From a virus, in IMG/VR virus record IMGVR_UViG_3300030451_003766, positions 1 to 22,305 of that record: a stretch of 22,305 nt of DNA, one strand, 5' to 3'. Positions 1,632 to 19,321 of this stretch are shown one piece after another. The notes beneath the pieces are model-generated. The model made no database searches. It was not told the origin of the DNA and saw nothing but the letters and a program-made list of their open reading frames with translations. Positions within the stretch are counted from its first letter, which is position 1; each line of letters begins with the position of its first letter. The position numbers and the translations under genes are program-made.

Positions 1632-1826
1632 GAGGGGTGGGAGGTTGGATTCCTGTGTACCAACAAGAGGAGGGCATTTCTACAGTTTAGAATTTCTCCT
1701 CTGCCTGAGACCCGACTGGTAGGTCGGTTCTTCCGAAGAAGCAGCACCACCTGTGTCTCATCACCTTAACCAGCTATATGCCAGTAAGTTTATTCAGTCA
1801 CTCCCGATGGAGATGATCAATCTCCA
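1632..1826 (-). ncRNA. Candidate structured non-coding RNA downstream of the tRNA cluster
   Basis: The 254 bases between the ParB-like gene and tRNA-Thr hold no credible gene but many perfect helices: 1644-1648 with 1660-1664; 1666-1672 with 1696-1702 (7 bp, with a nested 5-bp helix 1678-1682/1688-1692); 1706-1711 with 1755-1760, enclosing two hairpins (1712-1716/1723-1727 and 1728-1732/1736-1740); and 1808-1814 with 1820-1826. A possible long-range pairing of 1636-1640 with 1747-1751 would make a pseudoknot. It lies directly 3' of the tRNAs on the same strand and would be co-transcribed. T4 makes small stable RNAs (C and D) from its tRNA region, so a similar stable RNA is plausible. No known family (tmRNA, RNase P RNA, group I intron) was recognised. 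The ends are approximate. Confidence 0.45.
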
Positions 1827-1827
1827 A

Positions 1828-1899
1828 AGCCTAATGTCGGATTTGAACCAACGACCTTCGCTTTACAAAAGCGTTGCTCTACCACTGAGCTAATCAGGC
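1828..1899 (-). tRNA. tRNA-Thr (anticodon UGU)
   Basis: Full cloverleaf on the minus strand: acceptor GCCTGAT with ATTAGGC, D-arm GCTC/GAGC, anticodon loop TTTGTAA giving UGU (reads ACA), T-arm GTTGG/CCGAC with loop TTCAAAT. The outermost anticodon-stem pair is an A-A mismatch. No CCA is encoded. It is the last tRNA of the four-gene cluster and lies 11 bases from tRNA-Leu. Confidence 0.93.
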
Positions 1900-1910
1900 A
1901 AAAAAGTAGG

Positions 1911-1984
1911 TAGGAGTGGTGAGATTTGAACTCACACTGTACAGATTTTAAGTCTGCTGTCTCTACCAATTGGACTACACTCCC
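1911..1984 (-). tRNA. tRNA-Leu (anticodon UAA) with a short variable loop
   Basis: Acceptor GGGAGTG with CACTCCT, anticodon stem GCAGA/TCTGT around loop CTTAAAA giving UAA (reads UUA), T-arm GTGAG/CTCAC with loop TTCAAAT. The variable region is only about five bases, whereas leucine tRNAs normally carry a long variable arm. The D-arm pairs by only three bases (GTC/GAC). The encoded 3' end reads ACCT rather than ACCA. Confidence 0.85.
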
Positions 1985-1987
1985 AAA

Positions 1988-2061
1988 CGAGTGTGATTGG
2001 ATTTGAACCAATGACCGATTGCTTAGAAGGCAATTGCTCTAGTCCACTGAGCTACACACCC
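1988..2061 (-). tRNA. tRNA-Arg (anticodon UCU)
   Basis: Acceptor GGGTGTG with CACACTC, D-arm GCTC/GAGC, anticodon stem ATTGC/GCAAT around CTTCTAA giving UCU (reads AGA), T-arm ATTGG/CCAAT with loop TTCAAAT. It is three bases from tRNA-Leu. AGA is used often in this AT-rich phage, so supplementing host decoding is a reasonable role. Confidence 0.93.
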
Positions 2062-2066
2062 GTAGG

Positions 2067-2139
2067 TGCTTCTTGTGGGAATTGAACCCACCTTATCCGA
2101 ATTATGAGTTCGGTGCATTCACCAGATTGCTAAAGAAGC
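2067..2139 (-). tRNA. tRNA-Met (anticodon CAU)
   Basis: Acceptor GCTTCTT with AAGAAGC, anticodon stem CCGAA/TTCGG around CTCATAA giving CAU, T-arm GTGGG/CCCAC with loop TTCAATT. CAU could serve elongator Met, initiator Met, or Ile after lysidine modification. The paired first base (G1-C72) argues against an initiator. It starts only four bases after the cpeT stop codon, so the cluster is read through from the cpeT operon. Confidence 0.92.
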
Positions 2140-17941: not shown

Positions 17942-18844
17942 TTAATCATCATTAGCTAATGATGCAAAGTATGATAATGCATCATCGTCATCCACTACTG
18001 CTTCTTTTTTAACTGGAGTAGGTGCTCCAACAGAAACAGGTTGTCTAGTAGGAGGTGCAACAGGTTCAAACTCTTCATCATCCACAGTAGGACGAGGAAT
18101 AGGAGCAGGTCGTTGACCGATACCTAGAACAAGATTCAATCTATTTTCAAGTTCTTCGTAAGACTTGAATTGATCCTTAGAAGTAAATGCTTCTAACGAA
18201 TATTCTTTCTTCCAGACCGCTTCCAATTCAGAATCATCTGTAGAAACAGCACTAACACTATCAAACTCACTACTGTCATAGTTCCAGAATCCTGCGACTT
18301 GTTTGATCTTCAACTTAAAGTTTGCACCTTCCCAAAGATCAAATACATTTACTGGTTCTTCATCTTGGAACTCAGGTTGCATAGCAGCAAGGATCTTATC
18401 ATGGATCTTCTTACCATACTTGTAAAGGAATACCTTACCTTCGTTCTCAGGATGCTTAGGATCCTTAACAACTAAGATATTACTGTAGTAAGAAAGCTTA
18501 CGCTTCTGCTTACGAGCAGTATCTTTATCAGCATCATCGCCACTGTTCCAAAGACGACGGTTGACTTCACCAACTGGATCCTTTTCGTTGATAGTAGTCA
18601 AAGAATTCTCAATGTACCATCCACCAATACCTTGGAAGGCATGTGAATATACTTTTGCCCATGGAATAGTCTCTCCTTCTGGGGCAGGAAGGAATCTGAT
18701 AACAGCATAACCGTTACCAGTTGCATCAACTTCTGGTTTCCAGAAACGTTCATCAACTTGCTTTCCGCTAGATGATTTCTCTAATTCTTTTTGTAAGAAA
18801 TCAAAGTTGTTTCTAGATTTACGCTTAAGATCTGCAAATGACAT
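17942..18844 (-). CDS. gp32: Single-stranded DNA binding protein gp32
   Basis: The 300-residue protein has the T4 gp32 layout: a basic cooperativity motif (K7-R-K-S-R11, as the LAST motif of T4), the OB core (ERFWKPEVDATGNGYAVIRFLPAP, GWYIEN, SYYSNILVVKDP, KVFLYKYGKKI, FDLWEGANFKLKIK) and an acidic C-terminal tail (VVDDDDALSYFASLANDD) that recruits replication partners. It coats single strands in replication and recombination. Unlike T4 gp32 it has no cysteine at all, so the Cys3-His zinc site is missing (ENSLTTINEKDPVGEVN occupies that place). It has a GAGGT Shine-Dalgarno, its own late promoter, and a pseudoknot leader. Confidence 0.97.
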   Translation of the reverse strand: MSFADLKRKSRNNFDFLQKELEKSSSGKQVDERFWKPEVDATGNGYAVIRFLPAPEGETIPWAKVYSHAFQGIGGWYIENSLTTINEKDPVGEVNRRLWNSGDDADKDTARKQKRKLSYYSNILVVKDPKHPENEGKVFLYKYGKKIHDKILAAMQPEFQDEEPVNVFDLWEGANFKLKIKQVAGFWNYDSSEFDSVSAVSTDDSELEAVWKKEYSLEAFTSKDQFKSYEELENRLNLVLGIGQRPAPIPRPTVDDEEFEPVAPPTRQPVSVGAPTPVKKEAVVDDDDALSYFASLANDD

Positions 18845-18881
18845 ATTAGATTACCTCGGATTATTTTAGATTTGGTTTTTG

Positions 18882-18924
18882 TCTGGTTCCTATAGCCGCT
18901 TACCCTAAACCAGAAAGGGGGTAA
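18882..18924 (-). promoter_or_regulatory. H-type pseudoknot in the gp32 leader (likely autoregulatory)
   Basis: On the minus strand TTACCC (18924-18919) pairs with GGGTAA (18905-18900), and TCTGGTT (18914-18908), which lies between them, pairs with AACCAGA (18888-18882): stems of 6 and 7 bp in the a-b-a'-b' order of an H-type pseudoknot, with loops of 4, 2 and 11 bases. It ends 37 bases before the ATG, and the spacer is A/U-rich and unstructured with the GAGGT Shine-Dalgarno. In T4, gp32 shuts off its own translation by nucleating on a pseudoknot 40 bases upstream of the start and spreading over such a spacer. A small hairpin (18930-18934 with 18943-18947) precedes it. Confidence 0.8.
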
Positions 18925-18952
18925 CCGCAGTCAGAATTACTCCTGACACTAG

Positions 18953-18960
18953 TATTTATA
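18953..18960 (-). promoter_or_regulatory. T4-type late promoter TATAAATA for gp32
   Basis: An exact TATAAATA box on the minus strand; the expected start site lies at about 18947, directly at the 5' hairpin that precedes the pseudoknot. It gives gp32 a late transcript separate from the upstream replication operon. Confidence 0.78.
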
Positions 18961-18979
18961 GCACATCTGAGATGGTTTG

Positions 18980-19321
18980 TCAAGTCTCAGATTCTAGTTG
19001 TGTCTTCATTTGCTGAACCTTTGTGAGCAGTTCATCAAACATAGATTCTATGGTTGTATTAGGTGTAGCACCTAGCATAACAATGCCTTGCTTCATAGAT
19101 TCTATAACAGATTTTGCTTCAGGATCATCACTCAACTGAAGACGACCATGAAATATCTTTTGCTTTTCTATTAACTTTTCAAGTGCTTCAAAGTATTCTA
19201 TCTTTCTCTCTGGATCTAATAGAATAAAATTCATAGCAGATCTGAAACAGAACTGCTGAAGCTCCATCATTTCTTGAATGTCACCACGGACAATTTCTGA
19301 TTGAAAAAATTTACTGGTCAT
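18980..19321 (-). CDS. DUF1825 family protein
   Basis: The 113-residue protein matches the cyanobacterial and cyanophage DUF1825 pattern: FFQSEIVRGDIQEMMELQQ, then REK/ERKIEYFEALEKLIEKQKIFHGRLQLSDDPEAK, and a C-terminal helix with MFDELLTKVQQMKTQLE. It is all-helical, has no catalytic motif and its function is unknown. It overlaps gp33 by four bases (ATGA). The coupling to a late-transcription co-activator suggests a role in host RNA polymerase takeover or replication, but this is guesswork. A 6-bp hairpin spans its stop codon (18967-18990). Confidence 0.75.
   Translation of the reverse strand: MTSKFFQSEIVRGDIQEMMELQQFCFRSAMNFILLDPERKIEYFEALEKLIEKQKIFHGRLQLSDDPEAKSVIESMKQGIVMLGATPNTTIESMFDELLTKVQQMKTQLESET

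Follow-up and report, generated by a model that had tools for sequence, protein, structure and literature searches.

Layout of the gp32 leader

The window, that is, the whole 22,305-nt stretch of the IMG/VR virus record IMGVR_UViG_3300030451_003766 that was analysed, carries on its minus strand a gene coding for the single-stranded DNA-binding protein gp32, with its ATG at 18844. The features of this gene and its leader are as follows, from the coding sequence towards the promoter.

17942..18844 (-): gp32 ssDNA-binding protein gene (Pfam PF08804, E 9.9e-50; PHROG 224)
18845..18881 (-): 37-nt A-rich spacer with GAGG at 18857-18854, also found in relatives, whether or not they have the pseudoknot
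18882..18930 (-): pseudoknot RNA core CUGCGG...AACCAGA (blastn, covariation, covariance model)
18882..18888 (-): stem 2, 3' strand AACCAGA (shuffles and covariation)
18889..18899 (-): loop 3, GCGGCUAUAGG; GCGGC[U/G]A[U/C]AGG is nearly invariant in 132/132 copies, partly because the search patterns fixed it
18900..18905 (-): stem 1, 3' strand GGGUAA (shuffles and covariation)
18908..18914 (-): stem 2, 5' strand UCUGGUU (shuffles and covariation)
18919..18924 (-): stem 1, 5' strand UUACCC (shuffles and covariation)
18930..18947 (-): 5' hairpin P0, GUCAGGA-GUAA-UUCUGAC, 7 bp with a GUAA loop; the transcript is predicted to start at its 5' end
18953..18960 (-): TATAAATA, -10 element and match to the T4-type late promoter box
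18978..18983 (-): -35 element TTGACA, exactly 17 nt upstream of TATAAA

Read 5' to 3', the leader consists of TTGACA, 17 nt, TATAAATA, the P0 hairpin, the pseudoknot, and the spacer with GAGG, followed by the AUG. Interleaving of the two stems gives an H-type pseudoknot whose loops measure 4, 2, and 11 nt. An earlier reading of this DNA, hereafter the original prediction, had described two perfect interleaved stems (6 and 7 bp) whose end lies 37 nt from the ATG, a leader hairpin, and an A/U-rich spacer with a Shine-Dalgarno sequence, and all of these were found: the stems lie where they had been placed, the hairpin occupies 18947-18930, and the 37-nt spacer is 73% A+U, its GAGG lying 9 nt ahead of the gp32 AUG. 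The spacer and the ribosome binding site also contain three AATC motifs at a 10-nt spacing (window 18845-18875, minus strand), and the same was seen in several relatives.

The promoter had been described as a late one. This holds insofar as TATAAATA matches the late box, but the TTGACA 17 nt upstream, which shares bases with the stop codon of the DUF1825 gene lying upstream, makes the promoter sigma70-like. A purely late promoter was rejected, since the TTGACA-17-TATAAA arrangement of the window and the TATAAT boxes of its relatives favour the sigma70 type, with late use still possible. Sigma70-like promoters were found in 168 of 235 gp32 leaders, and TATAAATA in only 15 of the 235. In addition, a perfect 8-bp inverted repeat, ATCTGAGA/TCTCAGAT, surrounds the -35 element (window 18965-18992, minus strand), and a repeat of at least 7 bp occurs there in 61 of 205 gp32 leaders with TTGAC; it is a possible operator.

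The pseudoknot as a family in marine phages

Within the window, a pseudoknot of equal stem energy appeared in 2 of 3000 dinucleotide shuffles of 18845-18960. The pseudoknot was the strongest candidate in the window (-24 kcal/mol), with chance candidates reaching -23 kcal/mol, and the nested fold of the leader by itself was ordinary (z -0.44). Taken singly, the window sequence is suggestive of a pseudoknot, not decisive, and the evidence beyond chance is comparative.

BLAST searches with the window element found copies in P-SSM2, P-SSM5, and the single-cell marine viruses AG-345-E02/F15 (best E 7e-5). These copies are located before P-SSM2_175, upstream of purM, and not before gp32, and in both of their stems changes on one side are compensated on the other. 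Scanning IMG/VR with patterns brought the total to 132 copies on marine viral contigs in 102 distinct contexts, which are not independent, as many of the contigs are close kin and one context, DUF6561, dominates. An exact search with GGGTAAGCGGCTATAGG gave no match because one stem base varies, and a looser pattern succeeded; about half of the matches to the loose pattern were chance ones without the element, which were discarded after inspection. Two exact-pattern scans of 84,980 bacterial and archaeal genomes returned no copy. A single copy was present in each of two long records, P-SSM2 (252 kb) and a 236-kb contig, and none in fifteen further named cyanophage records.

Across 19 aligned distinct cores, all 247 cells were paired, and both sides had changed at 7 of the 13 pairs (stem 1, 2 of 6; stem 2, 5 of 7). 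Double-change cells numbered 41, against 12.1 ± 3.0 in shuffles, a control that does not remove kinship among the cores; slid registers paired at 50% or less. Stem 1 occurs as UUACCC/GGGUAA, UUAUCC/GGAUAA, UUAUGC/GCAUAA, UUAUUC/GAAUAA, and UUACUC/GAGUAA. In all 132 copies stem 1 was paired 6/6, part of it being fixed by the pattern, and stem 2 had at least 7 pairs. The slid registers and the many pair types, alongside the shuffles, leave little doubt on the pseudoknot, which is strongly supported by this comparison of sequences. Compensatory changes in relatives were the test set by the original prediction, and they were seen in both stems; a chance structure was rejected on the covariation. 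The window core scores 71.3 bits with a covariance model that includes the window itself.

The family core can be written as CUGCGGUUA...UAAGCGGC(U/G)A(U/C)AGGAA with two interleaved stems, and the window has it. The loops are nearly constant across unrelated genes, a conservation that is overstated because some loop positions, like some of stem 1, were prescribed by the search patterns. The feature downstream of the 102 contexts was a gene for DUF6561, a small Sm-like protein, in the majority (62), a P-SSM2_175-like gene in 11, gp32 in 8, PurM in 5, and others in 16, the last including small ORFs, two tRNA arrays, and one copy past the end of a psbA-like gene. In all DUF6561, P-SSM2_175-like, and PurM contexts the AUG lies 18-22 nt past stem 2; for gp32 the distance is about 32-36 nt, and a few others also fall outside 18-22 nt. 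Copies in L381, L390, and L412 have their own TATAAT-like box and stand directly before tRNA genes, and the tRNA array of L381 includes a tmRNA-like gene. In L397 (4230-4110, minus strand), the pseudoknot past the psbA-like gene is closely followed by a hairpin resembling an intrinsic terminator, GGGUCCUAACUAUGUUAGGAUCC plus U7, and then by an ORF, an arrangement that is a possible attenuator.

A TATAAT box with at most one mismatch was present within 60 nt upstream in 91 of the 96 contexts with enough upstream sequence, and exactly 28 nt before the core in 72 of them; the window has TATAAA at -30 from the core. Given this usual spacing, the RNA is expected to start at P0, and the transcript probably begins at this 5' hairpin. 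The sequence of P0 is highly variable, and at least 5 pairs ending at the C of CUGCGG were found in 84 of 98 contexts, compared with about 15% in shuffles. The window shares both traits of the family, a TATAAT-type -10 box placing the predicted start and a P0 that ends at the C of CUGCGG.

Presence and absence in gp32 leaders

The pseudoknot was found in 7 of 181 distinct gp32 leaders, in 4 by itself and in 3 together with the manA RNA. Among the remaining leaders, 26 have an element here called C, 6 an element B, and 6 the manA RNA, while 136 have no recognised element; classes were assigned by sequence pattern, and the 136 are the remainder, not a tested class. Many of these 136 leaders have a short 5' hairpin. 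In the nearest IMG/VR relatives of the window, L001 and L002, whose gp32 is 94% identical, the promoter, P0, and the spacer are the same and exactly the 47-nt core is missing. In the relatives that come next, the equivalent site has either no insert or one of a quite different kind.

In the tree of gp32 proteins the pseudoknot occurs in three places: in the window with L352, in L353, and in L376, L379, L385, and L395, whose gp32 is about 57-64% identical to that of the window. L001 and L188, which do not have the pseudoknot, are nested next to L352, so that loss is the simplest reading there. These comparisons indicate that the gp32 leader changes faster than its gene, through module exchange or deletion. 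Cyanophage gp32 leaders are a slot for exchangeable structured RNAs of at least four kinds.

The cysteines of the zinc site of Syn1 and T4-type gp32 are replaced in the window gp32 (EKDPVGEVN). The original prediction had paired this loss with the pseudoknot. The loss itself is borne out, but a link between the two was rejected, because the gp32 of S-RSM4 and L060 also has no zinc site and neither of them has the pseudoknot.

Element C, GUUGGGCAG...CGUAAGACCCAAC, is located where transcription is predicted to start, in gp32 leaders other than that of the window (L424-L538, L089, L090, and L422). Of its 85 contexts, 81 lie before gp32, and the other 4 are truncated by the end of the contig. Covariation was seen in the inner hairpin (16 double-change cells against 5.5), and an Rfam scan of C-bearing loci gave no match to the element. 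Should a T4-like operator exist for cyanophage gp32, element C would be a better candidate for it than the pseudoknot. Element B, CUGGGUUCUGACUACCACGAC...GGGUAAAAC..CCCAG, is a structured-looking insert of about 70 nt upstream of gp32 in L005, L055, L158, L161, L170, and L185; neither the phage record collection nor, for the loci scanned, Rfam gave a match.

Possible functions and comparison with known systems

From the comparison across contigs we favour, with modest confidence, the reading that the 5' leader of the gp32 mRNA is a hairpin and pseudoknot of a promoter-proximal family of cyanophage leaders, a cis-acting switch that has been borrowed repeatedly. The element would form the 5' end of the mRNA, hairpin first and H-type pseudoknot next. 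Its location in leaders suggests that it acts in cis on the transcript that it heads, as a riboswitch-like or protein-binding switch, and the near-invariant loops across unrelated genes suggest specific recognition. The invariant loops, UGCGG and GCGGC(U/G)AUAGG, would be recognised in the folded RNA by a small molecule or by a protein of the phage or the host, and this recognition would alter either translation initiation, the AUG usually being 18-22 nt away, or what becomes of the transcript. As in riboswitches, conserved unpaired residues are held in a conserved fold at a 5' UTR site. The nearly fixed AUG spacing of most copies and the single terminator of L397 are putative signs of an expression platform. 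The nearly fixed spacing suggests a translational role. However, the copies before tRNA arrays do not fit a purely translational role and the L397 terminator suggests transcription, so translation cannot be the sole level. By this account gp32 would have gained the module more than once, and one subgroup would have lost it again. Autoregulation of gp32 through the borrowed element is possible and putative.

Other explanations were weighed against this switch. The element might be the binding site of the phage DUF6561 Sm/LSm-like protein, in an autoregulatory leader that was borrowed by purM, gp32, and tRNA arrays and that would be comparable to ribosomal protein leaders. The 62 of 102 contexts directly before DUF6561 genes argue for it, although this count is inflated by related contigs. 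The profile of the protein matches PDB 3BY7 (E 2e-6), a structure titled as similar to Sm/LSm RNA-binding proteins, its predicted model matches the same entry (Foldseek E 6e-6), and the gene is encoded in 10 of 10 named cyanomyovirus records tested. However, most named cyanophages have DUF6561 without the element, in P-SSM2 the copy heads a different gene, some 4 kb away from the DUF6561 genes of that phage, and RNA binding by DUF6561 is putative; we consider this explanation unlikely. A ligand-free structure at the 5' end, shielding transcripts from nucleases like a cap or modifying RNA polymerase as in put-like antitermination, would account for the site at the predicted transcript start, the variable P0, and the use before tRNA arrays and before a terminator. 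It is quite unlikely: the loops, being near-invariant, point to specific recognition, the distance to the AUG hardly varies, long records that were searched hold a single copy per genome, and only one copy has a downstream terminator.

The original prediction had seen in the leader a cyanophage counterpart of the T4 gene 32 operator, with gp32 nucleating on the pseudoknot, spreading over the spacer, and blocking the ribosome binding site. T4 gp32 binds a pseudoknot and spreads across an A+U-rich stretch, and RB69 does so with a diverged sequence, while RB49 has no conserved pseudoknot (PMC3014915; PMC535899). The window resembles the operators of T4, T2, and RB69 in having an H-type pseudoknot whose distance to the downstream gp32 AUG is about 34-40 nt (37 nt here, compared with 34 nt in RB14) and, after it, an unpaired A-rich stretch with the Shine-Dalgarno sequence that reaches the ribosome binding site. 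Position, size, and a single-stranded spacer therefore fit an operator, as does the occurrence of the element in leaders of more than one gp32 lineage. The sequence, predicted to be unlike that of T4, does differ from the RB14 leader when compared by eye, with other loop lengths and no sequence relation or homology to the T-even/RB69 pseudoknot. This by itself would not speak against an operator, since those of T4 and RB69 are both functional despite unlike sequences (PMC535899). The spacer of the window is A-rich instead of consisting of UUAA repeats, and such spacers also occur in leaders without a pseudoknot. Unlike the T4/T2/RB69 operator, the element is common to many genes and absent from most gp32 leaders: only 8 of 102 contexts are gp32, only 7 of 181 gp32 leaders have it, and it is missing from L001 and L002. 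The nearly invariant loops over unrelated genes are not explained by a gp32-only operator, and element C is the one that is exclusive to gp32. We therefore regard a T4-type autogenous operator as very unlikely. Of the proposed conservation of mechanism without sequence, the geometry stands and the specific, retained association with gp32 does not; pseudoknot regulation of gp32 was not conserved from T4 by descent.

Sequence comparison points to the switch-like element as a new, unnamed family of cyanophage leader RNAs and a candidate new regulatory RNA. Rfam 15, searched with gathering and permissive thresholds, gave no match at the pseudoknot, and a known RNA was rejected on this ground; in the open-access literature searched, neither the loop sequence in print nor a description of a cyanophage gp32 pseudoknot was found. 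We tentatively propose an undescribed class of riboswitch-like or Sm-protein-responsive pseudoknots, used as an exchangeable module at cyanophage transcript starts and answering to one common signal of infection. If so, a common signal would tie together nucleotide synthesis, tRNA supply, an Sm-like protein, and DNA replication through gp32. The element is compact (about 65 nt), backed by covariation, and present on more than 100 marine viral contigs and in the isolate P-SSM2. Its partner, a ligand or a protein, can be searched for directly.

The manA RNA is a candidate riboswitch (PMC2864571) and lies directly 5' of the pseudoknot core in seven loci; its covariance model (RF01745) had no match at the element itself. 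In the window, the manA RNA was found at 1634-1826 (minus strand, 177 bits), adjoining four tRNA genes at 1828-2139 (minus strand), and it also stands upstream of gp32 in L042 and L060, and in P-SSM2 ahead of a gene annotated as purL. The glnA (Glutamine, RF01739), wcaG (RF01761), and similar leaders are, like the new core, compact RNAs with conserved residues in cyanophages, but none of them matched the element at the gathering threshold or when the window and P-SSM2 loci were searched permissively. The antitermination RNAs at the put sites of phage HK022 are likewise structured RNAs at the start of a phage transcript. The manA RNA of marine phages is about 190 nt long and has a different structure, and the new core mostly stands alone; however, the two are alike in their setting, which comprises the 5' UTRs of T4-like cyanophages, gp32 leaders, pur genes, and tRNA arrays.
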